From Blastocatellia bacterium (GTDB lineage: Bacteria > Acidobacteriota > Blastocatellia > Pyrinomonadales > Pyrinomonadaceae), in the NCBI GenBank assembly GCA_003168335.1, contig PMSM01000007.1, forward strand, positions 62,001-126,000: a stretch of DNA of 64,000 nt, in the 5' to 3' direction. The translations under genes were made by a program, and so were the position numbers. This document shows, piece by piece, positions 8,964-59,484 of the stretch. Every line of letters begins with the position of its first letter. Position 1 is the stretch's first letter. The notes beneath the pieces are model-generated. The model saw nothing but the letters and a program-made list of their open reading frames with translations, was not told the origin of the DNA and made no database searches.

Positions 8964-9088
8964 GAATTGCGGATAGCGAAATTCGAATTGCGAATTTGTT
9001 AAATCCAAACCGCGGATCCGAGGCACGACAAATGGTGAAAAGGCGACGGTCTGAAAATCCGAAATCCGAAATCCGCAATTCGAAATCG
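8964..9088. repeat. Heptamer inverted repeat between icd and purE
   Basis: Starting one base after the icd stop, 8964-8998 is five exact 7-bp units (GAATTGC, GGATAGC and variants). At 9053-9088 the opposite arm reads as GAAAATCC followed by 7-bp units such as GAAATCC and GCAATTC. Its reverse complement again contains GAATTGC and GGATTTC in 7-bp register. The right arm lies inside the predicted purE reading frame. Confidence 0.75.
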
Positions 9089-9562
9089 CTGGTGGCCGTC
9101 ATCATGGGCAGTAAGTCGGACTGGGAGACGATGCGGGTGACGTCCGAGACACTTGATCGTTTTGGCGTCGCGCACGAATGTCGGGTCATGTCCGCTCATC
9201 GCACGCCGACGCTTGCGTCCGAATTCGCCGGCACCGCCGAATCTCGCGGCCTGGAGGTAATCATCGCCGCCGCCGGCGGCGCGGCGCATCTGGCCGGAGT
9301 CATCGCCGCGCATACCGTGTTGCCGGTGTTGGGCGTGCCGATGAAAAGCGACGCGCTTAACGGACTGGATTCACTGCTCTCCACGGTGCAGATGCCGGCA
9401 GGTATTCCGGTCGGAACGTTGGCGATTGGAAAAGCGGGCGCGACCAACGCGGCGCTGTTCGCGGTGGCAATTCTGGCTAACAGCAGACCGGCGTTAAGAG
9501 AAAAGCTGCACGAGTTCCGTGCCGAGCAGGAAAAGAAGATTCGCGAAGTGACGTTGGATTGA
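9032..9562 (+). CDS. purE: N5-carboxyaminoimidazole ribonucleotide mutase (PurE)
   Basis: PurE converts N5-CAIR to CAIR in de novo purine synthesis. The body starts with [14 protein letters not shown] and continues with [10 protein letters not shown] and [18 protein letters not shown], all family signatures. The frame is complete to EIREVTLD. From the ATG at 9032 the first about 20 residues (rich in Arg, Ser, Asn) are not PurE-like; residues 8-19 are encoded by the right arm of the heptamer repeat. A GTG at 9092 immediately before AVIMGSKSD is an alternative start, but neither start has a clear ribosome binding site. No purK follows; the next gene is on the opposite strand. Confidence 0.92.
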
Positions 9563-9591
9563 TGAAGTGGCACGCGCATCCCGCGCGTGAA

Positions 9592-10554
9592 TCAAACGGG
9601 CGCGACGCCCGTCCCACCAAAATCCCGCGCCAGCAGCGCCGCTCCGATGGCCACTCCATCCGCTCCCAGTTCAGCCGCGACAATCGTAGTGGCTTCAAAG
9701 CAGGGTTGGAACGAGCGCTTTTGCGCTTCTTCGATTATTGGTTTGAGGATCAGATCGCCGGCTTCCATGATCGCGCCACCCAGAATGATCCGCTCGATGC
9801 TCAAAAGGTTGATCATGCTGGCCACGGCCGTGCCGATCGATTTACCGGTGCGCTCGAGCATCATCACCGAAAAGTCATCGCCGTTGTTCGCTTCGCGGGC
9901 CACATCGGCGGCGGTAAAGCTTTCTTCCAGCAACAGCTTCGACAGCGATGAGGTTGAGTCTCGATCCAGACGCTCGCGCGCCCGACGTACAATGTTCGGC
10001 CCCGAAGCCACGGTTTCCAGGCAGCCGGTATTTCCGCACTCACATTCAGCGCCCTCGGTGTTGATGGTGATGTGACCGATTTCTCCGGCGCAACCGGAAG
10101 CGCCGATCCAGAGTTTCCCGTCCAGAATGATCGCGCCGCCAATGGCTTCGCCGATACCGATGTAAAAAATATCGCGCGCATCGCGGCCCGCACCTGACTT
10201 GTATTCGCCGTAAGCAGCGGCGTTGGCATCGTTCTCGAGTTCAAACCGCAGGCCCGTTGCTTTCATCAACTCAGAGTGGATGTCGTCTCGGGCGGCGGAA
10301 GGCAGCCCGGTTGAGATCAGCACGCGGTCGGTTTCGCGATTTACCAATCCGGGAATTCCCAACCCGACAGACTTGATTGGCCCGGCTTCGCGCAGGCCAG
10401 TCACCAGGTTGGCAATTTCGCCGATCAGATTTTCTGGTTGGTAGGTTGCTTCACGCCGCGCGATCACATCACCGGCAGCGGAAATCACGACGCCACGCAT
10501 CGTCGTTTGAGCAACTTCAATCCCGGCATAGTTGGTTTCCGAAGTTTCCGGCAT
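9592..10554 (-). CDS. ROK-family sugar kinase (glucokinase-like)
   Basis: A 320-residue ROK protein. The ATPase phosphate-1 region is YAGIEVAQTTMRGVVIS; the sugar-binding segment is ELENDANAAAYGE with catalytic Asp; GEIGHITI and the zinc motif CECGNTGCLE are the ROK signature. There is no N-terminal helix-turn-helix, so it is a kinase rather than a NagC/XylR repressor. Glucose or another hexose is the likely substrate. The last residues (GGTGVAPV) are encoded by a palindromic repeat (GGGCGCGACGCCC near 9599), indicating that the natural C-terminus was extended or replaced by repeat DNA. Confidence 0.88.
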   Translation of the reverse strand: MPETSETNYAGIEVAQTTMRGVVISAAGDVIARREATYQPENLIGEIANLVTGLREAGPIKSVGLGIPGLVNRETDRVLISTGLPSAARDDIHSELMKATGLRFELENDANAAAYGEYKSGAGRDARDIFYIGIGEAIGGAIILDGKLWIGASGCAGEIGHITINTEGAECECGNTGCLETVASGPNIVRRARERLDRDSTSSLSKLLLEESFTAADVAREANNGDDFSVMMLERTGKSIGTAVASMINLLSIERIILGGAIMEAGDLILKPIIEEAQKRSFQPCFEATTIVAAELGADGVAIGAALLARDFGGTGVAPV

Positions 10555-10677
10555 GAGCGAGAGCCTTTCACATGAGCTTCGCAGATCAAGGGCAGGGATT
10601 TCCTGGTCATCTTATTAAAGGGCTGAGGGGCTGTCAAACCGCGCGTTGTGCGTGTAGAATGCCGTCGCATTGAGCCC

Positions 10678-11181
10678 ATGCCGGACACACCTGACAATTC
10701 GCAGGCGACCGCGCTGCAACTTCGCCGGATTTTGTTGCCGACTGACTTCAGCGGTTGCGCGAACTATGCGCTCCCCTATGCGGCCGCGATTGCCCGCGCG
10801 ACCGGGGCCGCAATCATCTGTGTGCACGTGGTTGAGCCGCTCGCGCCGGCGGTGGGATATTCGGGCTTGCCCGAGCCAATGCCGATCGCGGACATTAGTG
10901 AGCAGTTGGAAGACTCAGCCGAGCGCGAGTTGCCACAACTCGCCCGGTGCGAAGACTTCAGTGGCCTCGATGTCGAAGAGGTTATCGTGCATGGAGATGC
11001 TGCCGCCGAGATTGTGCGCGTGGCCGGCGAACGCGAAGTCGATCTGATTGTAGTGTCGTCGCACGGTCGCACGGGCCTGGGCCGAATTATCTTTGGTTCG
11101 ACCGCAGAGGCGGTTGTGCGCCATGCCAGTTGCCCCGTCCTGGTCGTAAAACCTCCACCACAGGAAGAGGAGTCGGATTAG
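10678..11181 (+). CDS. Universal stress protein (UspA family)
   Basis: 167 residues from ATG 10678; an in-frame ATG at 10648 adds ten residues without family similarity. The single Usp domain begins RRILLPTDFSGCANYALPYA and ends with the nucleotide loop HGRTGLGRIIFGSTAEAVV and CPVLVVKPP. The G-x2-G-x9-G-S/T pattern indicates the ATP-binding subclass. Usp proteins are cytosolic stress-responsive dimers of imprecise function. The stop codon is the first point of a heptamer repeat that runs up to the downstream dedA gene. Confidence 0.9.
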   Translation: MPDTPDNSQATALQLRRILLPTDFSGCANYALPYAAAIARATGAAIICVHVVEPLAPAVGYSGLPEPMPIADISEQLEDSAERELPQLARCEDFSGLDVEEVIVHGDAAAEIVRVAGEREVDLIVVSSHGRTGLGRIIFGSTAEAVVRHASCPVLVVKPPPQEEESD

Positions 11182-11270
11182 TGAGCAGTAAGCAGTGAAC
11201 AGTGGGCCCGCGCCGGCGCTGCGTGCCTTTTACTGCGACTGCTTACTGCTCACCGCTTACTGCTCACTGA
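11181..11270. repeat. Heptamer inverted repeat (GTAAGCA type) between usp and dedA
   Basis: The left arm at 11181-11208 is four 7-bp units (GTGAGCA, GTAAGCA and variants), starting on the last base of the usp stop codon. The right arm at 11232-11270 is the same vocabulary inverted (read on the minus strand: CAGTGAG, CAGTAAG, repeated). The centre, 11209-11231, is GC-rich. The right arm ends one base before the dedA ATG, so the element fills the whole gap. Confidence 0.8.
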
Positions 11271-11271
11271 T

Positions 11272-11994
11272 ATGAATAGCCTCCAGTTTTTGTCTCGTTT
11301 GATCGAACTGTACGGTCCCTACGCCGTTTTCGTCCTGTCTATGATCGAGGGCGACATCACGCTCCTACTGGCGGGGGTGCTGGCCCACAACGACTTTTTC
11401 GGCAGTTACAGCTTCGCGCGCGTCCTGCTGTGGGGCACGCTGGGCGGGTTCGCGAGTGACAACGTCGCCTTTGCGGCCGGTCGCGCCTTCAACAAGACAG
11501 TTCGCAACTTTCGCTTCTATCGGAGCGCGCAGGGTCGTATGGAGCGGTTGACCAGGCACTTTGGCACGCTCTCAATTTTTGTCTCGAAATACATCTATGG
11601 TTTGCGTTGGGCCTCATGCACTTTCTACGGCGTCGCTCGGATGAGTTACGTGCGTTTTCTCCCGCTCTCGCTGGCGAGTTGTTTTTTGTGGGTTTTCATT
11701 CTCAGCGGCGTCGGCTATTTTTTCAGCAGCGCCGTGATGGGGTTGATTGGCGACTTTCGTCATGTGGGCAAGGTGCTCCTGGTGATCGTAGTAGCCGGAG
11801 TGCTTGGGTTCTATCTAATTAAGCGACTTTGGCTTTCGAAGAAAGTTGAAGAGGCCCAGCCTGAACGGCTACAGGAAATCGAGCACGCGGCGATCGAAGG
11901 CATCAAGGAATTGTCGGGAGAGATCCAGGAAAAAATTCATTTGAAATCAAAGCGGCGACGAGAAAACTCGCACTCGTCCAAACGACGCGATTGA
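11272..11994 (+). CDS. DedA/SNARE-associated family membrane protein
   Basis: 240 residues with four to five hydrophobic segments: about 15-35 (YAVFVLSMIEGDITLLLAGV), 55-75, 120-155 and 160-185, followed by a basic C-terminal tail of about 55 residues. The pattern and the early acidic residue in MIEGD agree with the DedA family, inner-membrane proteins implicated in lipid carrier recycling and membrane homeostasis (undecaprenyl phosphate or PE flipping in characterised members). The usual G-x-x-x-G and Arg elements are seen only roughly. The stop codon overlaps a TTG that could begin the downstream GHMP kinase frame, so the two genes are likely coupled. Confidence 0.75.
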   Translation: MNSLQFLSRLIELYGPYAVFVLSMIEGDITLLLAGVLAHNDFFGSYSFARVLLWGTLGGFASDNVAFAAGRAFNKTVRNFRFYRSAQGRMERLTRHFGTLSIFVSKYIYGLRWASCTFYGVARMSYVRFLPLSLASCFLWVFILSGVGYFFSSAVMGLIGDFRHVGKVLLVIVVAGVLGFYLIKRLWLSKKVEEAQPERLQEIEHAAIEGIKELSGEIQEKIHLKSKRRRENSHSSKRRD

Positions 11995-12035
11995 AAAGTA
12001 AACAGTCGCCAAATAAAAGAACCAGGAATAATAAA

Positions 12036-13040
12036 GTGATCATTGAATCTTCTGCCCCAACCCGCGCCGATCTTGCCGGCGGTACCATCGACATCTGGCC
12101 GCTTTATTTGTTTCATCCGGGCGCCATGACCGTTAACTTTGCGCTGTCTTTGCGGGCCCACGTGCGCATTGAAACGCGCGCCGACGACCGCCTGATTCTG
12201 GAATCACGCGACCGCGGGATCCGTTTTGAAACGACTGTCGATCGCATAGATGAGTTGGCGCGCGATGAGCAACTCGAACTCGTCTCGAAGATGGTCCACT
12301 TCTTCCGGCCCGAAACGGGCTTTCATCTCATCGCGCACAGCGAAGCCCCTGCCGGCGCGGGCATCGCCGGATCGTCGGCCCTGGCAATCGCTTTGATCGG
12401 GGGACTGAATAGCCTGGTGGGGAATCGTTACGATCGCGATCAGTTCATCGAGATCGCCGCGAACGTGGAAACCACTGTCATAAAAGTCCCGGCCGGATTT
12501 CAGGATTACTATCCGGCGTTTTACGGCTCGACTTCCTGTGTACATCTTCGTCTTGAGGGGGTCGAGCGTGAACATCTGGCGGTCGACGATGACGAAATTA
12601 AGCGCCGTTTCGTGATTTGTTACACCGGTGAACCGCGTCACTCGGGAATTAATAACTGGGAGATGTTCAAACGTCACATTGATGGCGATGCCGAGCAGTT
12701 TGCGATCTTTGAACGCATCCGTGACGCCGCGGTGCAGATGCGCGCCGCGCTGCTGCGAAACGACTGGCAGGCAGCAGCGGAAACGATGCGCGCCGCGTAT
12801 CCAAACCGCAAGCGCCTGGCGCCCGCGATCACGACGCCGCAAATGGATCATCTGGTTGAGAGGGCCCTGGCTAACGGCGCCGAAGCCGCGAAGGTCTGCG
12901 GCGCTGGTGGCGGTGGCTGCATTGCGTTTCTTTGCGCTGAGGGCCGCAAGCCTGACGTTGAACGCGCTTTGGGGGAAGAAGGAGCGGAGATTTTGAAATG
13001 GGAAGTTGCTCACGAGGGGTTGAAGGTGAGCGAGAGCTAG
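12036..13040 (+). CDS. GHMP-family sugar kinase (heptose/fucose kinase-like)
   Basis: 334 residues from a GTG at 12036 with AGGA upstream; the frame can be extended to a TTG at 11991 overlapping dedA. The GHMP signature is clear: the N-terminal APTRADLAGGTID, the ATP loop EAPAGAGIAGSSALAIALIG and the C-terminal loop KVCGAGGGGCIAFLC. The layout resembles D-glycero-D-manno-heptose 7-phosphate kinase (HddA) and fucokinase/galactokinase relatives that feed nucleotide-sugar pathways. No other heptose genes are nearby, so the substrate is open. Co-transcription with dedA is likely from spacing. Confidence 0.82.
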   Translation: MIIESSAPTRADLAGGTIDIWPLYLFHPGAMTVNFALSLRAHVRIETRADDRLILESRDRGIRFETTVDRIDELARDEQLELVSKMVHFFRPETGFHLIAHSEAPAGAGIAGSSALAIALIGGLNSLVGNRYDRDQFIEIAANVETTVIKVPAGFQDYYPAFYGSTSCVHLRLEGVEREHLAVDDDEIKRRFVICYTGEPRHSGINNWEMFKRHIDGDAEQFAIFERIRDAAVQMRAALLRNDWQAAAETMRAAYPNRKRLAPAITTPQMDHLVERALANGAEAAKVCGAGGGGCIAFLCAEGRKPDVERALGEEGAEILKWEVAHEGLKVSES

Positions 13041-13121
13041 ATACCCAAGGCGAATTTCGTCAACCGATCAAAATCGTTTGTTCAATCAGTTAAAGATTTG
13101 GCCCAGCTACCCGATCCCTCT

Positions 13122-13177
13122 TCAACCGCGAAGCGGTTGTGACCTCCAGCCCAACGTTGCCGAAGGCTACGTTGGGT
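13122..13177 (+). repeat. Left inverted repeat of the REP-transposase unit
   Basis: A 56-bp sequence made of two smaller palindromes, AACCGCGAAGCGGTT and CCCAACGTTG...CTACGTTGGG. It is repeated in inverted orientation at 13802-13861 with only a few differences (a short insertion in the second loop). A further stem-loop, GCAACCCTGTAAGGGTTGC, lies at 13198-13216. Confidence 0.85.
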
Positions 13178-13308
13178 AACGAGGAATGATGATTTGGGCA
13201 ACCCTGTAAGGGTTGCGTCACCACTCAGGAGATGCAACCAGAGTTGCAAACAACCTTCTTGCATCATGATGTAAACTCACCCTTCAAAAAAAAGGAGACT
13301 GCACTCCC

Positions 13309-13761
13309 ATGCCGCAATCGCTCTCCGCTGTTTACATCCACCTCGTCTTTTCGACGAAAGAACGACGCCCATTTCTAAGAGATGGGACACTCCGCGAGTT
13401 GCTGCATTCTCAGATTGGCGGCATCTCGAAAGAGCTTGGCAGCGCACCGATTATCACTGGAGGAGTAGAAGATCATGTGCATCTCCTGGCCCGTTTTGGC
13501 CGCACGATCACACAAGCGGAATGGGTGAAGGAACTGAAGCGGGTATCAAATCTATGGCTGAAGGAGAATTACTCGATCCGCGATTTCGAGTGGCAGGGAG
13601 GTTATGCGGACTTTTCGGTCAGCGCATCGAATCTTGAACGAGTCAAGACGTACATTGCCAACCAGCATGAGCATCATCACAAGATGAATTTTCAAGATGA
13701 GTTGCGAACGTTGCTCCGGCGTCACAAAGTTGAGTGGGACGAACGCTATATCTGGGATTGA
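13309..13761 (+). CDS. REP-associated tyrosine transposase (RAYT, Y1/IS200-like)
   Basis: 150 residues, starting at an ATG preceded by AAAGGAG at 13291-13297. The HUH motif is HVH at residues 56-58 within GGVEDHVHLLARF, and the presumed nucleophile is Tyr115 in VKTYIANQHEHH. The region FEWQGGYADFSVS is conserved in IS200/RAYT proteins. RAYTs nick and join single-stranded REP hairpins and are thought to disperse them. The flanking 56-60-bp inverted repeats, each carrying hairpins, and the smaller stem-loops just outside the gene (13198-13216, 13764-13780) are the expected REP context. The gene is intact. Confidence 0.9.
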   Translation: MPQSLSAVYIHLVFSTKERRPFLRDGTLRELLHSQIGGISKELGSAPIITGGVEDHVHLLARFGRTITQAEWVKELKRVSNLWLKENYSIRDFEWQGGYADFSVSASNLERVKTYIANQHEHHHKMNFQDELRTLLRRHKVEWDERYIWD

Positions 13762-13763
13762 CG

Positions 13764-13861
13764 CAACCGCGTTGCGGTTGATGGACCTTTGTTCGCCAAA
13801 AACCCAACGTAGCCGCTGCGCAGCAACGTTGGGCTGGAGGTCACAACCGCTTCGCGGTTGA
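13764..13861 (-). repeat. Right REP hairpin and inverted repeat of the transposase unit
   Basis: 13764-13780 is a perfect stem-loop, CAACCGC-GTT-GCGGTTG, immediately after the transposase stop. 13802-13861 is the inverted partner of 13122-13177 and again contains the CGCGAAGCGG-type hairpin and the CAACGTTGGG segment. The rest of the 13762-13951 gap shows no gene. Confidence 0.85.
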
Positions 13862-13951
13862 CGTCAGATGTCCAAATCGGAAAATTGAGTCTTCCTACAC
13901 CCGGCGATATTAATTGGCGTGCTAACGAACTTCGTCGGGCTCGGTTTTTAT

Positions 13952-15022
13952 TTACCCGCCCTCTTCCGACTTCTGCTTGGCCGCCGCGGCGAGTTTGGTT
14001 AGTCGCTCGATCTTTTGTTCGTGAGTCTCACCGGGAATTGGTCCCGTATCAACTACCCCAGCGTAAGTCGATCTTCTCATCAAGGTCCGATCGGGTTCAT
14101 CACTCGAGGCGTGTGCGGCAGTGGGCACGGGCGCCGCGGCCGGCGCAACTTTGTCAGGCGCGAGGTCGGTTGGAGTCTCGGCTACCGGCGAAGCATTCGC
14201 GGCCGCCGCGCTCGGTGGAATTGCGGAAGTAGATCCGGCCTCGGCTTCCGTCGCCGTCCTGGGCGGGTCCGCAGTAGGCGACGAATCGGCAACGGTGACC
14301 GCCGCCGCGGGCTCGGCTCCGCCTTCCTCCGAGCGTTGCTTTGCTCCCGCGACGACTTTCTGCAAGCGCTCGATCTTTTGTTCCCTGGTTTCGCCCGCAA
14401 CTGGTCCGGTATCGACTACACCAGCATAGGTTGATCTCTTAAACAGAGTCCGGTTGATTTCACCCGCAGGTTTTGGAGCAGCCGCCGCGGCCACCGTTTT
14501 GTCAGCAACCTCAGCCGTCTGGGGCGCGGCTGGAGCCGGCTTGGCAGCAAGGGCGGGTGGAGTCGCAACTGCTGGTGGCGTTGCAGCGGCAGGTGGTTTT
14601 GCGGCAGGCGCGGGTGCGGCGTGCCCATGACCACCACCGCCCTGTTCGACGATTACGTAAACGCCTTTTTCATTCTTCTCGATGACCGGAAGTGTGCCGC
14701 CGGCGGCTTGCAGCAAAGCAGAGAGTTCAGCTTCGACAAAGCGGCTCTGCTTTTCGGGATCGCGCACATGCCCGAGCGGTGGACCCATGTAGAGCGTGCC
14801 GCACAAGTGACACTTGGACAGCACGTCATCGCCACGCAGATGGACCTCGGAAAGTTCGCCGGCAGTCTTCAACTGCTTTAAGTGACCGTTGCAGAGTTTT
14901 TTCTTCTCGTTCCGCTCGTTGCAGACGGTTTGAGCGTTGGTGATGCGCTTTGGCACCGCCGGCGTTGTTGCCGATACAGTTTCCGGAGTGGTTGAATTAG
15001 CTGCTGCGATATTGGCTGACAT
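13952..15022 (-). CDS. Unknown protein: cysteine-motif domain plus duplicated 45-residue module
   Basis: 356 residues. I do not recognise a family. Residues 30-80 hold four cysteines, C34, C44, C71 and C74 (CHLCG), with H47 near them, suggesting a metal site. Residues 95-130 form a short globular region (FVEAELSALLQAAG, then GVYVIVEQGGGGH). The remainder is Ala/Pro-rich linker containing two copies of a 45-residue module at 191-235 and 312-356, each reading RTL-x-x-RSTYAGVVDTGP, then GET-x-EQKIERL, and ending SEEGG. No signal peptide or membrane segment is seen, so it is probably cytosolic. The duplicated module looks like a peptide docking or modification site; that is inference. Confidence 0.7.
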   Translation of the reverse strand: MSANIAAANSTTPETVSATTPAVPKRITNAQTVCNERNEKKKLCNGHLKQLKTAGELSEVHLRGDDVLSKCHLCGTLYMGPPLGHVRDPEKQSRFVEAELSALLQAAGGTLPVIEKNEKGVYVIVEQGGGGHGHAAPAPAAKPPAAATPPAVATPPALAAKPAPAAPQTAEVADKTVAAAAAPKPAGEINRTLFKRSTYAGVVDTGPVAGETREQKIERLQKVVAGAKQRSEEGGAEPAAAVTVADSSPTADPPRTATEAEAGSTSAIPPSAAAANASPVAETPTDLAPDKVAPAAAPVPTAAHASSDEPDRTLMRRSTYAGVVDTGPIPGETHEQKIERLTKLAAAAKQKSEEGG

Positions 15023-15268
15023 GATTCGCTTTCGCGCGCCTGATGATTTGTCTCTTCCCCAAAGCTTTAAGAAAACGGAGTGTCCGAATATTAGCTATGA
15101 ACGCAGACGCGGTCAAACTCTATGCACTGAGCGCGGAGCGCGAACCTTTTGAATCCGAACTTTTGAGCGCCTGGCGGCGCTGTGCGGACGGGACGTCCGC
15201 GCTCCCGGCATTACGCGCAAAGGATAAAAGCGTGCGTCATCGCCGCCCGTGATATTCTTGCCATCCTA

Positions 15269-15742
15269 ATGCTTATTGAATTTCTCGGGACAATTTGGCG
15301 GCATTTGCCGGGCGTTGCGCGGCGTCGTCTGGTGCGCATGGGCCAGAGGCGTTTCACGGTTACCGCCGGCGCGATGATCTTTGACGAGGAGGGCCGGATC
15401 CTCCTGCTTGACCATGTTTTTCGTCCCGATAGCGGCTGGGGAATTCCGGGTGGTTTTCTAACTAAAGGCGAACAGCCAGAGGCGGCCCTGCGGCGCGAGT
15501 TGAAAGAGGAAGTTGGAATTGACCTTGAAGCTGTCGAGATGCTTTTAGCGCGCACGCTTCCAAAACCGCGGCAGATCGAAATCTACTTTCGTGCCAGGGC
15601 GATCGGACGGCCAGAGCCGTGCAGCTTTGAAATCAGGAGTGCCGGCTGGTTTTCGATCGACGATCTGCCGCCCGAACTTTCGCCAGATCAGCGTCGCCTG
15701 ATCGAGTGCGCGCTGGCGCTCAGTGAAAACTCTAATCAATGA
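15269..15742 (+). CDS. Nudix hydrolase
   Basis: 157 residues from ATG 15269 (MLIEFLGTIWRHLPG); an upstream in-frame start at 15182 would translate palindromic intergenic DNA. The Nudix box is complete: G-F-L-T-K-G-E, seven residues, then RELKEEVGI. An N-terminal hydrophobic/basic stretch precedes the domain, which starts at RRFTVTAGAMIFDEEG. The family cleaves nucleoside diphosphates linked to another group; the substrate here is unknown. It sits upstream of a PyrE-like gene in the same direction. A GCGGACGGGACGTCCGC palindrome lies at about 15183-15199 in the preceding gap. Confidence 0.85.
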   Translation: MLIEFLGTIWRHLPGVARRRLVRMGQRRFTVTAGAMIFDEEGRILLLDHVFRPDSGWGIPGGFLTKGEQPEAALRRELKEEVGIDLEAVEMLLARTLPKPRQIEIYFRARAIGRPEPCSFEIRSAGWFSIDDLPPELSPDQRRLIECALALSENSNQ

Positions 15743-15799
15743 TGTTATGCTACGCGCCGCAAACGCAATCAATAAATCATGAATCGCTGAGGAGAAGCT

Positions 15800-16423
15800 A
15801 TGGCAGGAGCACCAGGCGTCCAACTAATTCCATCGCCCGAAGAAATAATGCAGATTCTGAAACGCACCGGAGCGTTTCGCGAAGGGCACTTTGTCTACCC
15901 TAACGGCAAGCACACCGCGCACTATTTCCAGATGCCGCTGGCGTTTCGTTACTACGATACGGCCCGCGTGTTGGCCGTTGCGCTTAGCCGCAAGTTTCGT
16001 GTCGACCGCGACATCGCCAGCCAGTTGCCGAAAGTCTCGATCATCAGTCCCAGTTCGGGTGGAATCCCGGTCGCGTTCGGCGTGCGCGACGCGCTGAGCG
16101 CGGAACAGATTTACTGGGCCGAGCAGGAGAACGGCAAGCGCATGTTTCGCCAATACGTGAACCAGGGCGACATCAATCCCTGCATCATCGTCGACGACAT
16201 CATTCGCAGCGGCCACGCAATTGAAGAGACGGTCGGACTGGTGCGCAGCCTCGGCGCGCCGATCATCGGCTGTGGCGCGATTGTGCGTTTCACCTCGGCT
16301 CCTGATCAGCTTGAAGGCGTAGCGATCAAGTCACTGGTGGAGTTTGACGAGAAGTATTACGACTCGGCTGAGACCTGCGTCGAGTGCACGAAAGGCGCGC
16401 CGGAAGAACATGTGCGGTTCTGA
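15800..16423 (+). CDS. pyrE: Orotate phosphoribosyltransferase-like enzyme
   Basis: 207 residues with an AGGAG ribosome binding site at 15789-15793. The type I phosphoribosyltransferase PRPP loop is CIIVDDIIRSGHAIEE (two acidic residues followed by the phosphate-binding loop). Features shared with PyrE are FREGHFVYPNGKHTAHYFQM near the N-terminus and SPSSGGIPVAFGVR. PyrE makes OMP from orotate in pyrimidine synthesis. The C-terminal TCVECTKGAPEEHVRF is unusual for PyrE and is seen in a divergent OPRT-like subgroup, so adenine/orotate specificity is inferred, not shown. The stop is followed within ten bases by the IVP element. Confidence 0.78.
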   Translation: MAGAPGVQLIPSPEEIMQILKRTGAFREGHFVYPNGKHTAHYFQMPLAFRYYDTARVLAVALSRKFRVDRDIASQLPKVSIISPSSGGIPVAFGVRDALSAEQIYWAEQENGKRMFRQYVNQGDINPCIIVDDIIRSGHAIEETVGLVRSLGAPIIGCGAIVRFTSAPDQLEGVAIKSLVEFDEKYYDSAETCVECTKGAPEEHVRF

Positions 16424-16431
16424 AAGAGCTA

Positions 16432-16490
16432 GTCGGCAGACCGCAGGAAGCAGACAGCAGGAACAAAACGACAAGACAGGAAGCAGGAGG
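16432..16490 (+). repeat. Left heptamer arm of the IVP element
   Basis: 16432-16463 consists of 7-bp steps of the type GCAGACC, GCAGGAA, and matches the inverse of 16875-16899. The left arm has exactly one additional unit (ACCGCAG) compared with the right. The arm continues imperfectly to 16490, where its last unit supplies AGGAGG, the ribosome binding site of the enclosed gene. Confidence 0.85.
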
Positions 16491-16494
16491 ATCT

Positions 16495-16869
16495 ATGCCA
16501 ACCCCACAGGGCTTTAGAGATCTCAAGGTCTACCAGTTGGCTTATCGACTGGCAATGGAGGTCTTTCGTGAGTCAAAGTCCTTTCCCCGAGAAGAAAGAT
16601 ATTCGCTGACAGATCAGATTCGTCGAGCGTCAAGAAGTGTCGCTAGTAATATTGCCGAGGGTTATCGCAAGAAACGCTACCCCAAGATGTTCGTGAGCAA
16701 GATGGCTGACGCTGACGGTGAGGCGACGGAGACTCAAGTATGGCTGGATTTCGCCCGCGACTGCGGATACCTCGCCCAACAACGCCAAGGGGAATTAACG
16801 AGCGGCTATGAAGAAGTAGGCCGAATGCTGGGAAGCATGATTCTCAAGCCGGAGAGGTTCAGCGGTTGA
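16495..16869 (+). CDS. Four-helix-bundle protein of the 23S rRNA intervening-sequence (IVP/S23) family
   Basis: 124 residues. The family pattern is present: FRDLKVYQLAYRLAMEVF, then SLTDQIRRASRSVASNIAEG, YRKKRYPKMF and ETQVWLDFARDCGYL. These small basic four-helix bundles form pentamers, and the family includes Avd of diversity-generating retroelements and the protein encoded in 23S rRNA intervening sequences of Leptospira and Coxiella. Their molecular function is not established. Here the gene is not in rRNA; it sits between two heptamer arms that replace the pyrE-recR intergenic region. Its ribosome binding site lies inside the left arm, and the stop codon is followed within five bases by the right arm. 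Confidence 0.9.
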   Translation: MPTPQGFRDLKVYQLAYRLAMEVFRESKSFPREERYSLTDQIRRASRSVASNIAEGYRKKRYPKMFVSKMADADGEATETQVWLDFARDCGYLAQQRQGELTSGYEEVGRMLGSMILKPERFSG

Positions 16870-16912
16870 ACTGCTTCCTGCTGTCTGCCTCCTGCCGACT
16901 GCCTTCTGTTGT
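16870..16912 (-). repeat. Right heptamer arm of the IVP element
   Basis: 16875-16899 is the inverse of the left arm minus one heptamer. Further CTGCC-type units extend to about 16908. The arm ends seven bases before the recR stop codon, so the element separates two convergent genes. Confidence 0.85.
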
Positions 16913-16918
16913 TGTTCT

Positions 16919-17533
16919 CTACATTTCGTGCCGATTAGTCAGCGCCTTGTCCATCGTTACTTCATCGACGTATTCCAGATCGCTGCCCACGGGCATTCCC
17001 ATCGCCAGACGCGTAACCCTTAGACCCAGAGGCTTCAACAAACGGCTGATGTAGTTCGCCGTCGCTTCGCCTTCAGTGTTGGGGTTGGTGGCCAGAATTA
17101 CTTCTTGCATTTCCACGCCTTCGTTGTTCTCCGGCTTCAAACGCGGCAGCAAATTCTCCAGCCGCAGATCACTCGGACGGATGCCGCGAATGGGCGAGAG
17201 GCTTCCATGCAAAACGTGATACAGACCTTTATAGCTGCGTGTCTTTTCAACAGCTACCAGGTCGTAGGGCTGCTCTACAATGCAGATCAGGGAATGATCG
17301 CGGGATGGCAGGGTGCAGAAGCGGCAGGGATTGACGTCGGTGAGATTATTACAGACTGAGCATTCGGTGATGCGCTGCTTCACTTCACGTAAAGCTTCGA
17401 TGAAGCGCTCGACCTCGGCTGCGGGCGTGCGCAAAATGTGAAACGCAAGTCGCTGGGCAGACTTCTGCCCGATGCTGGGCAGGCGTTTGAATTCGTCGAT
17501 TAGTTTTGTAACGGGCTCTGCGTAATCAAGCAT
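16919..17533 (-). CDS. recR: Recombination mediator RecR
   Basis: 204 residues, normal for RecR. The N-terminal helix-hairpin-helix region is LPSIGQKSAQRLAFHIL. The zinc finger is C58, C61, C70 and C73 (CSVCNNL...CRFC). The Toprim domain carries ICIVEQPYDLVAVEKT and ILATNPNTEGEATANYI. RecR acts with RecO/RecF to load RecA on gapped DNA. As in many bacteria it lies downstream of ybaB, but the 147-bp gap between them is occupied by a heptamer inverted repeat. The start codon has no visible ribosome binding site because the repeat abuts it. Confidence 0.97.
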   Translation of the reverse strand: MLDYAEPVTKLIDEFKRLPSIGQKSAQRLAFHILRTPAAEVERFIEALREVKQRITECSVCNNLTDVNPCRFCTLPSRDHSLICIVEQPYDLVAVEKTRSYKGLYHVLHGSLSPIRGIRPSDLRLENLLPRLKPENNEGVEMQEVILATNPNTEGEATANYISRLLKPLGLRVTRLAMGMPVGSDLEYVDEVTMDKALTNRHEM

Positions 17534-17539
17534 TGCGAT

Positions 17540-17660
17540 CTTTGTACTTTGAACTTGGAGCTTGGTGCTTTGTATTCTCCCCCCGAATGGGGTGTCTGTG
17601 CGATTCTGCCGCGCACGGTTCTTAAGAGATCAAAGTTCAAAGTACGAAGTACAAAGAACA
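17540..17660. repeat. Heptamer inverted repeat (ACAAAGT type) between ybaB and recR
   Basis: Read on the minus strand the left arm (17540-17577) is a 7-bp series ACAAAGC, ACCAAGC and so on. The right arm (about 17626-17660) on the plus strand is TCAAAGT, TCAAAGT followed by ACGAAGT-type units. The loop contains a CCCCGAATGGGG hairpin. No gene is carried. Confidence 0.8.
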
Positions 17661-17680
17661 CAGCTCACTCAATCGGGTGG

Positions 17681-17995
17681 TTAGAACAAATTGCCAAGCC
17701 CGGGCGGCAGCATCGAACCCAACTTGCTTTTCATGGCTTCGTTCACCTTGCGGTTGCCTTCATTGATGGCGGCGACAATCATGTCCTGCAACATTTCGAT
17801 ATCATTGTCTTTGACGATTTCTGGATCGACCTTGAGCGAAATGATTTCGTGGTCGCCTTTCATCGTCACGTTGACTACTCCGCCTCCGGCTGAGGCCTCA
17901 ACGCGCAGTTCTTCCATTTCGCGCGCCATCTTCTCTTGCATCTGCTGCGCCTGCTTCATCATTCCCTGAATGTTGAGCCCGCCAGGAAATTTCAT
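17681..17995 (-). CDS. ybaB: YbaB/EbfC nucleoid-associated protein
   Basis: 104 residues, the usual family size. It starts [20 protein letters not shown], continues with the long helix [21 protein letters not shown] and contains [21 protein letters not shown]. The protein is a DNA-binding homodimer that coats the chromosome. It is transcribed toward recR, the standard pairing. An extended GGxxN-like C-terminus ([12 protein letters not shown]) is typical. Confidence 0.95.
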
Positions 17996-18140
17996 TGTGC
18001 TAACCTCGCTTCTGGTTTGATAATAATCTTTGAACTGAGCGACGCGAGCATCGTAACTGTCATTGAAGATGAATGCAAAGCTGACCGGCGCCAGTGACTA
18101 GTGTCCCGATCTGGATTTCGTGTTTTCTTTCAGCTTAGCA

Positions 18141-33486: not shown

Positions 33487-33584
33487 AGAGGTCATAGTGA
33501 TAGAGGTCAGAGGCCAGGAGTCAGAGGTCAATAGGAAAGGAGTTGAACGCCTTTACTGACCGCTGATCTCTGACCGCTGACCTC
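33487..33584. repeat. Heptamer inverted repeat (AGAGGTC type) between tRNA-Ser and gltX
   Basis: The left arm (33487-33532) is a 7-bp series AGAGGTC, AGAGGCC with a partly decayed start. The right arm (33555-33584) inverts to GAGGTCA, GCGGTCA and so on. The right arm ends nine bases before the tRNA 3' end. Confidence 0.8.
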
Positions 33585-34894: not shown

Positions 34895-35169
34895 TTTTTC
34901 AGCTACTCCTTTGGCTGCAAACTTTGATTTATAGTATTGGGGAAGTTATTAAGGCCCCTTCATATGTGAGGTCTTAGACGCTTGAACAGGCGCAATGGTC
35001 TAAAGAAGTTCTTGACTAGCAGTGTGTTTCCGGGATACAAACTACTTTGTCCGGCAAAGCTATGGCCCGAGATCGGTTGCGGGCAGGGCGGCGCCAGGCG
35101 CCAGGCCGTAAGAAATGAATCTTTTATGAGATAGCAAAAGCCCGCGTCAGGGTTTACAATTCCGCCCGC

Positions 35170-42153: not shown

Positions 42154-42588
42154 ATGACTGCTCAAATGCAACCATCAAATCAACAAGGCCTCGACATTCA
42201 ATCGACGCCGCGCGCGGAGATGAATCTCTTTCCGCTCGACACGTTTGCTTACGAGTTTCCCGGCCGCGAGATCAAGATCAAATTCGAGATGCCGGAGTTC
42301 ACCTGCATTTGTCCCTTCTCGGATTTCCCGGACTTTGCCACGATTCGTTTGGAGTACGCGCCGAACGAGCGCTGCGTCGAGCTGAAGAGCCTGAAGCTTT
42401 ACATCAATTCGTGGCGCGACATGAAAGTCTTTCACGAACACGTCGTCAACATGATTCTCGAAGATTTTGTGAAGGCCTGCGATCCGCTCAGCGTCGAGAT
42501 CGAAGGTGATTTCAATGTGCGCGGAAACATCAAGACGAGGGTGAGCGCGAGCTACCGAAAACAGAAGGCTACAAGCAGTAAGCAGTAG
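42154..42588 (+). CDS. queF: NADPH-dependent preQ0 reductase QueF
   Basis: 144 residues, the short single-domain form. It reduces the nitrile of preQ0 to preQ1 in queuosine synthesis. The thioimide-forming Cys is C53 in [12 protein letters not shown] and the general acid D60. [20 protein letters not shown] is the QueF motif. The last four residues (SSKQ) and the stop codon are encoded inside a heptamer array beginning at 42574, so the repeat has been recruited as the gene end. No other que genes are nearby. Confidence 0.93.
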
Positions 42589-42629
42589 GCAGTAAGCAGT
42601 AGGTAGGAAGCAGGAGGCAATCAGCAGTG
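42574..42629 (+). repeat. Heptamer array (AGCAGTA type), eight units, no second arm found
   Basis: Eight 7-bp units in exact register from 42574 to 42629 (AGCAGTA, GGCAGTA, AGCAGGA and variants). The queF stop (42586-42588), an AGGAGG ribosome binding site (42612-42617) and the GTG start of the next gene (42627-42629) all lie inside the array. Confidence 0.9.
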
Positions 42630-57282: not shown

Positions 57283-57745
57283 GAACAGTAAGCAGAAGGC
57301 AGTAAGCAGTAAGCAGACAGGGCTAAGCCGCAGAGTGCTGCCTACTGCCGCCTGCCTACTGCCTTCTAATTCCCGAGGTTTCACCCTCCTCGAACTAATG
57401 ATCGTTATTTCGATCATCATCATTCTGGCGTCCGTGGCGTTGCCGCAATATCAAAAGACAATCATGCACGCGCGTGAGACGGTTCTGCACGACGACCTTT
57501 TCAGGATGCGGTCGTTACTCGATCAGTACGCGGCAGACAAAGGCAAACTACCGCAATCGCTCGATGATCTCGTCTCTGAGCATTACTTGCGCGAGATTCC
57601 GAAAGACCCGATTACCGACAACAAGGATTGGACGGTAGTGACCGGCGATGATCCCTACTCGACTGAAGGCTCGAGCGGAGTTACCGACGTGCACAGTTCA
57701 TCGGGCGACACTTCGACTGAAGGCACGCCATATAGTGAATGGTGA
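57257..57745 (+). CDS. Second type II pseudopilin, leader partly repeat-derived
   Basis: 162 residues from ATG 57257, overlapping the first pseudopilin by 26 bp. The cleavage site is G41/F42 (SRGFTLLELMIVISIIIILA) with Glu at +5. The mature part has a pilin body and ends with LREIPKDPITDNKDWTVVTG and DDPYSTEG, a GspG-like C-terminus. Residues 10-37 of the leader are encoded by a heptamer inverted repeat at 57284-57367. The frame is kept by the repeat on both sides. Confidence 0.83.
   Translation: MERSTVTGENSKQKAVSSKQTGLSRRVLPTAACLLPSNSRGFTLLELMIVISIIIILASVALPQYQKTIMHARETVLHDDLFRMRSLLDQYAADKGKLPQSLDDLVSEHYLREIPKDPITDNKDWTVVTGDDPYSTEGSSGVTDVHSSSGDTSTEGTPYSEW
57284..57367 (+). repeat. Heptamer inverted repeat inside the second pseudopilin leader
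   Basis: Left arm 57284-57325 in 7-bp steps (AGCAGAA, GGCAGTA) and right arm 57337-57367 inverse (CTACTGCCTTCT end). It begins one base after the stop codon of the first pseudopilin. The unit vocabulary is the same as at 42574 and 11181. Confidence 0.9.
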
Positions 57746-57748
57746 AGA

Positions 57749-57837
57749 CGTCAGTCGTTAGTAATCAGTCAGTTGGTACGACAATTAGCAACTGACTACT
57801 AAACCAATCTGAAATTTGAAATCAGAAATCCAGAGAA
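57749..57837. repeat. Two short heptamer repeats before the PilM-like gene
   Basis: 57749-57804 is an inverted repeat with 7-bp steps (ATCAGTC, AGTTGGT; inverse CAACTGACTACTAA). 57810-57837 is a direct heptamer run (TGAAATT, TGAAATC, then AGAAATC). The first starts three bases after the pseudopilin stop, and the second ends six bases before the ATG. Confidence 0.75.
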
Positions 57838-57843
57838 TCTTCG

Positions 57844-58788
57844 ATGCCCGCGAACCCCCTCGATAAACTTCTGAAGCCTCGTTTTCCCTCCTGCGCTGTC
57901 GGTATCGATAGTGGCGCCGCCTCAGCGGTGCAACTGGATCGGGTTCGCGGCGGATTCGTCGTGAAACGCGCAGCCTCGGTCCACCTGCCGTCGGATTTGG
58001 TGCGCGCGAGCTTCGATGAAAGTAATATCGCGGACCCGGCAGAGTTAACCAGGGCCCTCTCTGATCTGCTGGCCGGCGCCGGCCTGCTCCGCCAGCGCAA
58101 ATGGTCGGTGACCCTGCCCGAAACCTCTATCCGCGCCGCGGTGTTGGCACTGGAAGGGGTAGCCAGTTCACGCCGCGAGTTGGAAGAAGTGCTCGAGTGG
58201 AAAATAGAGCGCAGCTTTGGCGCGCCCTTGTCTGAACTGCGCGTGTCCCGCGAGCAGCTGGCGCCCGACGCTCAAAGACAGTCGCGCTATCTGATCACTG
58301 CGGTGCGGCTCTCGGTACTGGCGGAATATGAGGCAGTTTTCGCTGCCCTGGGATGGCAAGCCGGCTTGATCTTGCCTCGTCACGCGGGTGAAGAACAGTG
58401 GTTGCGAAATGGCCATCACGGCGATGGCTTGTTGCTGACCGCGCATGAGGAGGGCTTCACGGCAGTGCTTATGCGCAACAACCAGCCCATCACTTTGCGG
58501 GCAGTTTTTTGTGAGGCCGAGGAGTGTGACGACGAACTTCATCGCGTGCTACTGTTCTACCGCGAACGCTCGGGATCTACTGGACCAGGCGATGGTGCCG
58601 CAGTCGATCGATTATTGGTAGTCGGCGATTGGTTGGACAAACAAAGGGTCGTCGCCATTGCGCAAGAGACATTGGGAGTAAACTTGAAGCCACTGAACGC
58701 CGCGGACGTCGGACTGGCTATTCCCCCTGGCGATTTGGCCTTCGATACTATTGCCGCGCCGGCCGGCCTGGCTAGTCTGGCATGGTAA
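57844..58788 (+). CDS. PilM/GspL-like actin-fold assembly protein
   Basis: 314 residues starting MPANPLDKLLKPRFPSCAVG. The ASKHA-type start IDSGAASAVQLDRVRGGFVV, VTLPETSIRAAVLALEGVAS and EVLEWKIERSFGAPLSELRV match PilM/GspL-like cytoplasmic assembly factors. The C-terminus ends in DVGLAIPPGDLAFDTIAAPA. It should dock to an inner-membrane PilN/GspM-type partner, which is not encoded here. Followed by a hairpin terminator, so it closes the operon. Confidence 0.78.
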   Translation: MPANPLDKLLKPRFPSCAVGIDSGAASAVQLDRVRGGFVVKRAASVHLPSDLVRASFDESNIADPAELTRALSDLLAGAGLLRQRKWSVTLPETSIRAAVLALEGVASSRRELEEVLEWKIERSFGAPLSELRVSREQLAPDAQRQSRYLITAVRLSVLAEYEAVFAALGWQAGLILPRHAGEEQWLRNGHHGDGLLLTAHEEGFTAVLMRNNQPITLRAVFCEAEECDDELHRVLLFYRERSGSTGPGDGAAVDRLLVVGDWLDKQRVVAIAQETLGVNLKPLNAADVGLAIPPGDLAFDTIAAPAGLASLAW

Positions 58789-58833
58789 AGAGAAATATAG
58801 GACCGATATAACCTATTGGGCCTATATTTCTCT
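58789..58833 (+). terminator. Hairpin at the end of the secretion operon
   Basis: AGAGAAATATAGG (58789-58801) pairs with CCTATATTTCTCT (58821-58833), a 13-bp stem with a 19-nt loop, immediately after the stop codon. The loop (GATATAACCTATTGGG) also carries internal repeats. Confidence 0.65.
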
Positions 58834-58881
58834 CTGAAACTTTCCCTGCTCTGACGACGTAAAACCGGAGCAATTGCAACG

Positions 58882-59484
58882 ATGAGCGCAGCGATTTCGA
58901 TAGCAAAACTCGGCGCCCTGGCTGATGGCGAGTTGGTTCAGAGTGCACTCGCCGGTCGCGAAACGTCGTTTGAAGAACTGGTGCGCCGGTATCAGCGGCC
59001 CATCGCGGCGTACGTGTATCGCATGGTCGGCGACTATGATGCGGCGCTCGATTTGACGCAGGAAGTCTTTATCAAGGTTTACAAGTCGCTGACGCGCTAT
59101 CGTTCCGAGTTCAAGTTCTCTACCTGGATCTACAAGATTGCGCACAACGCCGCGATCGATCATCTGCGCCGCCACGCCGTGCGCGAGCACTCGTTGACCA
59201 CGGGAATTGACGGCGAGCACCGGGAAATTTCAATCGAGAGCCGCCGCCTTACGCCTGAGCAGGAAAGCGAACGAAAGGAACGAGTTTCCGAAATTGAATC
59301 CGTAGTGCAATTGCTGCCGGCTGCGTATCGTGAGTTGATCGTGCTGAGACATTCGCAGGATTTGAGCTATGACGAAATTGCCGAGGTCACAGGTCTCCCT
59401 CTCGGTACCGTCAAGAACCGTCTGTTCCGCGCGCGGGAAGCCATGCGCGATCATCTGCTTCAGCGGGGTATTACCAGTCCGTAG
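58882..59484 (+). CDS. ECF RNA polymerase sigma factor (module 2, RpoE-like)
   Basis: 200 residues. Region 2: FEELVRRYQRPIAAYVYRMV, GDYDAALDLTQEVFIKVYKS, KFSTWIYKIAHNAAIDHLRR. Region 4: LPAAYRELIVLRHSQDLSYD then EIAEVTGLPLGTVKNRLFRA. It is followed by a zinc-finger anti-sigma gene and a bactofilin-like membrane protein. The gap between sigma and anti-sigma holds a REP-like inverted repeat (59486-59567). Confidence 0.95.
   Translation: MSAAISIAKLGALADGELVQSALAGRETSFEELVRRYQRPIAAYVYRMVGDYDAALDLTQEVFIKVYKSLTRYRSEFKFSTWIYKIAHNAAIDHLRRHAVREHSLTTGIDGEHREISIESRRLTPEQESERKERVSEIESVVQLLPAAYRELIVLRHSQDLSYDEIAEVTGLPLGTVKNRLFRAREAMRDHLLQRGITSP

Follow-up and report, generated by a model that had tools for sequence, protein, structure and literature searches.

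A gene-less heptamer hairpin between usp and dedA, a candidate relative of intercistronic elements that carry IVP genes

The usp-dedA hairpin and period-7 arrays

The window analysed here is the whole 64,000-nt stretch of DNA from a Blastocatellia bacterium of the family Pyrinomonadaceae. It contains a usp gene followed by a dedA-type gene whose closest named relatives come from gp4 Acidobacteria and Pyrinomonadaceae (Table 1). The usp stop codon (TAG) occupies 11179-11181, the dedA ATG lies at 11272, and the whole gap between the two genes is an inverted repeat with arms of 27 and 27 nt, which are 89% complementary and enclose 41 nt. A preliminary description had the array begin on the usp stop and end one base short of dedA. 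We confirmed this span except for its 3' end: the 3' arm reaches 11271, so that the inverted repeat runs right up to the ATG, one base further than described.

Table 1. Positions of genes, hairpin arms and heptamer arrays in the window.
Feature	Position	Strand	Remarks
Single array	9055..9086	+	AAATCCG unit
usp	10678..11181	+	PF00582; upstream neighbour of the hairpin
5' arm of gene-less heptamer hairpin	11177..11203	+	GTGAGCA/GTAAGCA-like units; overlaps usp stop
Hairpin loop	11204..11244	+	differs among most congeners
3' arm of gene-less heptamer hairpin	11245..11271	+	TTACTGC/TCACTGA-like units; abuts dedA ATG
dedA-type gene	11272..11994	+	VTT domain, PF09335; downstream neighbour of the hairpin
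5' arm of gene-bearing (IVP) element	16435..16463	+	
IVP/four-helix-bundle gene	16495..16869	+	PF05635, TIGR02436; weaker match to Avd
3' arm of IVP element	16871..16912	+	
Gene-less hairpin	17540..17668	.	CAAAGTA-like unit; same place and unit, other loop in G006
Gene-less hairpin	33503..33584	.	GAGGTCA-like unit; GTCAGTG-like hairpin there in G006
Single non-inverted array	42577..42619	+	AGTAAGC unit; across queF end
Gene-less hairpin	57287..57367	.	CAGTAAG-like unit, before pseudopilin; GGGCAAA-like hairpin there in G006
Single array	57806..57830		

Folded as RNA, the usp-dedA hairpin reached -55.1 kcal/mol (z -8.1), which none of 200 shuffled sequences equalled, and the opposite strand folded too (-54.7 kcal/mol, z -7.7). 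An Rfam search of positions 9000-18000 matched no family. The synteny of usp and dedA is kept in six congeners (L006-L010 and L022; L labels denote loci and G labels genomes, G000 being the source genome). Heptamer arms made of GTGAGCA-like units are present in every one of them and stretch from the usp stop, or near it, until a few bases short of the dedA start. Loop sequence and length vary among the congeners, with the exception of L009 and L010, which share one loop. This shared loop contains an extra palindrome (GTTCCGCCTTCAGGCGG-like), which means that other repeats can enter the loop of a hairpin. At six other loci that were read (L011-L016) no heptamer array was evident by eye. A comparison of arm pairing at usp-dedA gave no signal of compensatory pairing, with -38.2 kcal/mol for arms of the same species and -37.2 kcal/mol for arms combined across species. 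Because swapping arms between species leaves the pairing intact, the unit is conserved and co-variation is not proven.

The preliminary description had proposed a genome-wide check for period 7, and we found that this period is indeed enriched. In 800 kb of contig C14 of the source genome, 31 lag-7 arrays (score of at least 12) are intergenic and 6 lie in coding sequence, compared with 0-3 intergenic arrays at each of the remaining lags from 4 to 13 and 0.2 at lag 7 in simulated intergenic DNA; lags 14 and 21, harmonics of 7, gave 22 and 9 arrays. The window itself has five segments at lag 7 and none or one at each other lag from 2 to 13. At a lower threshold, C14 and the window together have arrays in 41 gaps (32 of 396 tandem, 5 of 54 convergent and 4 of 72 divergent gaps), and an inverted partner was present for 21 of the 41 arrays, as against 0 of 41 in shuffled sequences. 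A general tie between array ends and gene ends, which had also been suggested, did not reach significance in the source genome. Across its 21 inverted pairs, 19 of 42 edges lay within 10 bp of a gene end, compared with 17.5 when the block was placed randomly within the same gap (P 0.28); both edges were near gene ends in 8 cases, with 5.9 expected (P 0.05, slack-fixed test).

At least seven heptamer loci had been claimed for the window, which is broadly right. We found lag-7 arrays in eight gaps and at a ninth place, 57286-57364, which our simple in-house gene caller, the source of the gene calls in this study, put inside a gene; only some of them are inverted, namely the array at 11181, the three other gene-less hairpins in Table 1 and the IVP element (16435-16912). 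A weak lag-7 array lies at 35090-35106. The leader of the pseudopilin seems to be encoded within the right arm of the heptamer hairpin that precedes it. At 58788-58882 we noticed a short 9-bp-step repeat or hairpin, and the same gap of G006 holds a longer 9-bp ATGTGTCCC-like array.

IVP genes and their flanking arrays

PF05635 denotes the S23 protein that intervening sequences of 23S rRNA encode, and the solved structures 2gsc and 2rld match the window IVP by sequence. The source genome has five PF05635 matches, and the four above the cut-off are all bracketed by heptamer arrays. A match above the cut-off is present in 51 of 60 genomes of the family. We searched the flanks of 94 family IVP loci for lag-7 arrays (score of at least 9, about 170 bp). 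Such arrays lie upstream of the gene at 68 loci and downstream of it at 75; 63 loci have them on both sides and 80 on at least one. IVP genes are thus bracketed by the same kind of arrays as the usp-dedA gap, as had been noted for the window. At the same 94 loci, arrays on either side were found at lag 8 in 4, at lag 9 in 8, at lag 10 in 1 and at the remaining lags in 0-4, with the exception of the harmonic 14, and control stretches 600-790 bp from the IVP genes gave 3 and 3 lag-7 arrays. The first 30 of these loci are the top-scoring PF05635 matches, one per genome, and a further 60 were chosen from among the matches listed, with their flanks unseen at the time of choice; the 94 count one gene twice (L002/L003), and one of 95 (L005) was dropped because it had no blast match.

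The arrays are not confined to the family. Among 27 further IVP loci from Acidobacteria, 19 have an array at lag 7 and 8 at lag 8, one of them at both, which makes 26 of 27 together; the remaining one (L250) fell under the threshold, with 8.8 at lag 7. We also selected 12 plasmid loci among 43 hit records (ten from Cyanobacteria, one each from Azospirillum and Gemmatirosa), and all 12 have arrays, 4 at lag 7 and 8 at lag 8, one of the latter with a stronger signal at lag 9. At three of the plasmid loci (L263, L264 and L267, from Tolypothrix, Nostoc and Brasilonema) a tyrosine recombinase/integrase is annotated after the IVP gene. The link between IVP genes and 7-bp arrays is strong.

These elements have a common anatomy of two inverted arms, each with about 4-5 tandem units at a step of 7 bp (8 or 9 bp in some lineages), and the gene-bearing form has a single IVP/S23 four-helix-bundle gene and a unit of its own. 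The 5' arm agrees with the reverse complement of the 3' arm at 0.79 within an element (n=63) and at 0.49 between elements, and the arms of one element pair at a median of -46 kcal/mol, compared with -17 for mismatched arms. Median arm lengths at steps 7, 8 and 9 are 32, 39 and 42 nt, or 4.6-4.9 units. The 5' arm is purine-rich in 64 of 80 step-7 elements. Unit variation in the 5' arms comprises 136 A/G and 59 C/T mismatches; this strand asymmetry is modest once base composition is allowed for, and we give it no weight. Rotation-aligned units share a weak consensus of 2.86 bits, with at most 2.48 for permuted units.

The unit follows the protein. Across 79 elements, the unit resembled that of the closest IVP relative at 0.78, compared with 0.527 after permutation (sd 0.015, maximum 0.576, 1000 permutations), and leaving out 33 pairs with homologous flanks gave 0.758 versus 0.526 (maximum 0.577, 2000 permutations). 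Below 50% IVP protein identity the units are unrelated; above 60%, 42-51% of the pairs at non-homologous loci have the unit in common.

Gene-bearing elements obey a very strong position rule: they lie between the stop codon of one gene and the start codon of the next, oriented like the operon. We analysed the position of 60 of the 62 distinct two-armed elements, those with both flanking genes called. Of these, 51 point the same way as the two neighbouring genes, 1 points against both, and 8 occupy gaps of mixed orientation. In 52 tandem elements the median start of the 5' arm is at -1.5 bp relative to the upstream stop codon, and the median end of the 3' arm is 5.5 bp ahead of the following start codon. 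The median slack of the IVP elements, which come from many genomes, is 4.5 bp, compared with 325 (per base) or 116 (per gap) expected from the array-free tandem gaps of the source genome. Genes that start within 15 nt after a 3' arm have an SD-like motif in 1 of 39 cases; for comparison, such a motif is found in 160 of 599 genes of the source genome and in 32 of 60 IVP genes.

G014 has one element at MFP-RND and another at gap-pgk, two loci that are unrelated; the elements are 83.5% alike over their whole length, arms included, and this similarity does not continue into the flanks. G042 has a similar two-copy pair (75.7%). Because copies at unrelated sites match exactly up to their outer arm edges, IVP elements are likely mobile. 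At one orthologous site (L160/L168) the cassette is inverted relative to its flanks. Sister species hold different elements in the same gap: at gap-pgk, MFP-RND, HlyD-ZnT, the NuoI gap and others (names read from translations and not from database calls), one has an IVP element where another has a gene-less hairpin with a different unit, a single arm or another palindrome. The idea that gene-bearing and gene-less forms alternate at one intercistronic gap among sister species was thereby upheld. Among five sister-species gaps and the gaps of the window we found no clean empty site or target-site duplication; mostly another element was there.

Relation of the gene-less hairpins to IVP elements and rival explanations

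The preliminary description took the usp-dedA array for a candidate gene-less relative of the IVP element. The shared kind of array and the alternation in gaps agree with this; a match of units and a loop remnant, by contrast, did not emerge. Gene-less units resembled 79 sampled IVP units, those of their own genome included, at 0.722, compared with 0.689 after permutation of positions (P 0.105, n=20), and no IVP remnant was recognisable in the gene-less loops. By this measure the gene-less arms show no significant match to those of an autonomous element of the same genome, as would be expected of a MITE.

We considered whether an IVP could mobilise the gene-less hairpins of its own genome in trans. 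Array densities per 100 kb were 4.7 (G000), 3.0 (G018), 11.0 (G028) and 16.2 (a region of G006) with an IVP, and 34.5 (G007), 22.8 (G055), 0.6 (G026) and 0 (G027) in genomes in which none was detected, where incomplete assemblies could hide one. Pooled, this amounts to 78 arrays in 1,275 kb with and 70 in 623 kb without IVP. G026 and G027 (1 array in 379 kb) fit the idea, whereas G007 and G055 (69 in 245 kb) contradict it, and we dropped it because genomes without a detected IVP have more arrays per base. We also considered that gene-less hairpins are relics of IVP deletion. In relatives, the site of the window IVP holds a broken IVP gene near a contig end (G003), one arm (G005) or a gene-less hairpin (G006). 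As no gene-less loop matches IVP, this site is the one place that suggests deletion. Among 39 lag-7 arrays in 113 kb of G007, some loops (L315, L318, L313 and L320) are similar by eye within a unit family, in a genome that lacks a detected IVP. Gene-less hairpins may therefore be able to spread by themselves or with the aid of some other factor.

On balance we lean towards reading the usp-dedA array as one form, without a gene, of an intercistronic hairpin element that in its other form carries IVP and that is related to rRNA intervening sequences. The transcribed arms would form an RNA stem of 25-35 bp, open to cleavage by, for instance, RNase III, as happens in 23S rRNA intervening sequences, so that insertion between cistrons would be tolerated. 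The stem length at usp-dedA is compatible with RNase III excision. More speculatively, an IVP oligomer might bind the tandem units of its own arms, about one protomer per unit, and this binding might hold the step constant even as unit and protein change together.

A local origin is the rival that survives best, although we judge it unlikely. Without any mobility, replication slippage would grow an array at a gene end, a template switch would copy it to the opposite side of the gap as an inverted arm, the loop would be old intergenic DNA and IVP genes would be passengers that came to settle in such hairpins. Loops that are mostly unshared, arrays that are frequent without IVP and the occurrence of single arms all fit, as does an arm in G059 that is homogenised for a unit variant absent from the other arm. 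In addition, among long simple repeats, those of 7 nt are the most frequent kind in the majority of genomes (PMC4679880). Against this, IVP elements at unrelated sites match as a whole up to the arm edges, the unit tracks the protein across non-homologous loci, several phyla have IVP genes at 7-9-bp arrays, and some gene-less hairpins of G007 have loops that look alike by eye.

We find it rather improbable that the hairpin is an RNA element serving the host, separating or tuning two cistrons by transcript cutting, mRNA protection, attenuation or an effect on the translation start. It is kept at usp-dedA in 7 of 7 readable congeners, folds strongly on either strand and has arms in the place of the SD region, a feature shared with TAACTGA repeats (PMC4679880). 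Yet the hairpin is absent from the outgroup genera, other gaps change unit and element type between sister species, and the neighbouring genes are unrelated.

REPIN-like elements moved by a RAYT transposase are a very improbable source. They would explain short intergenic hairpins, and a RAYT-type Y1_Tnp gene lies nearby (13309-13761), but the palindromes beside it are of another kind, the unit goes with IVP, and the arms are tandem arrays of many different units instead of a fixed palindrome of the 16-mer type. The Y1_Tnp gene (IS200-like) has no match in the syntenic stretch of G003, G005 and G006. Chance or low-complexity sequence can be practically dismissed in view of the fold (z -8.1), the period-7 enrichment, the counts at IVP loci and the inverted partners in 21 of 41 arrays versus 0 of 41 after shuffling.

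Comparison with known repeats and intervening sequences

In 23S rRNA intervening sequences, which are cut by RNase III, an S23/IVP gene lies between inverted repeats (PMC4990558). The IVP elements described here share this arrangement of gene and repeats. The intervening sequence of Coxiella burnetii has three tandem heptamers before its gene and is cut on the 5' side at the first repeat; its stem of about 28 bp, the heptamers in its 5' part and its gene-less or broken forms resemble our elements further (PMC4990558). An S23 protein of Xanthomonas is a homopentamer (PMC4990558). The number of units per arm might reflect such a pentamer. More than 25 years after rRNA intervening sequences were discovered, what they do and where they come from is described as unclear, and S23/IVP proteins as having no known function (PMC4990558). 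Insertions in the rRNA of CPR bacteria contain IVP genes and also occur as short gene-less forms (PMC11270868), and in a CRISPR survey the 23S rRNA IVP is named, in the part consulted, solely in the legend of a figure that deals with associations of adaptation modules (PMC10910872). Whereas intervening sequences lie inside rRNA genes, neither the usp-dedA hairpin nor the IVP elements do; ours lie between protein genes, in many copies with many units. Both have a long stem from inverted ends, and the IVP elements have the S23/IVP gene of ORF-bearing intervening sequences; the usp-dedA hairpin is gene-less.

The TAACTGA repeats of Beggiatoaceae share with our arrays the 7-bp step, the intergenic location, the overlap of some with the upstream stop and the scarcity of SD motifs; many lie directly before a start codon, the largest class 1 nt upstream (PMC4679880). 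They differ in having one fixed unit in direct repeats, with a single inverted case, and the passages searched in that paper contain no mention of an IVP gene (PMC4679880). At usp-dedA the units vary and the arms are inverted, although TCACTGA in the right arm is one change away from TAACTGA. REPINs, with their RAYTs, are likewise extragenic, miniature, inverted doublets that form hairpins and are tied to a protein lineage; in the parts consulted they are described with a fixed palindromic REP and a tyrosine transposase, without heptamer arrays (PMC3116915). The usp-dedA arms do not consist of a fixed REP palindrome. STRR and GGGNATC are heptamer repeats of Nostoc and Xanthomonas. Like our arrays, GGGNATC heptamers are tandem, over-represented in non-coding DNA and often located between aligned genes, with four units preferred; they differ in their G-quadruplex units, and the abstract describes neither an inverted partner nor a gene (PMC4692102). 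In the open-licence literature we recognised no description of IVP genes between inverted heptamer arrays outside rRNA.

The same design at usp-dedA and around the IVP genes of many bacteria suggests a widespread, little-noticed kind of mobile hairpin element. As a broader and clearly more tentative possibility, IVP/S23 could be the unit-reading part of an undescribed class of minimal mobile elements whose ends are set by the step (7-9 bp, about five units per arm) and not by sequence. Each protein lineage would read its own unit, and the elements would target the places in operons where a stop codon is followed by a start codon. On this view 23S rRNA intervening sequences would be copies of the class in rRNA, and many 'simple' heptamer repeats of bacteria would be what is left of it without the gene. 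Should it hold in general that IVP genes move between inverted 7-9-bp arrays whose unit tracks the protein, a single protein and a single short hairpin would be enough to test binding, mobility and RNA excision. If so, several unexplained kinds of bacterial heptamer repeats could trace to one source.

Finally, three gene-less loops of C14 (gaps after 232793, 337134 and 600676; among L035-L074) have a TTCGTGTGATTTCGTGGATC-like insert in common, which belongs to another repeat family.
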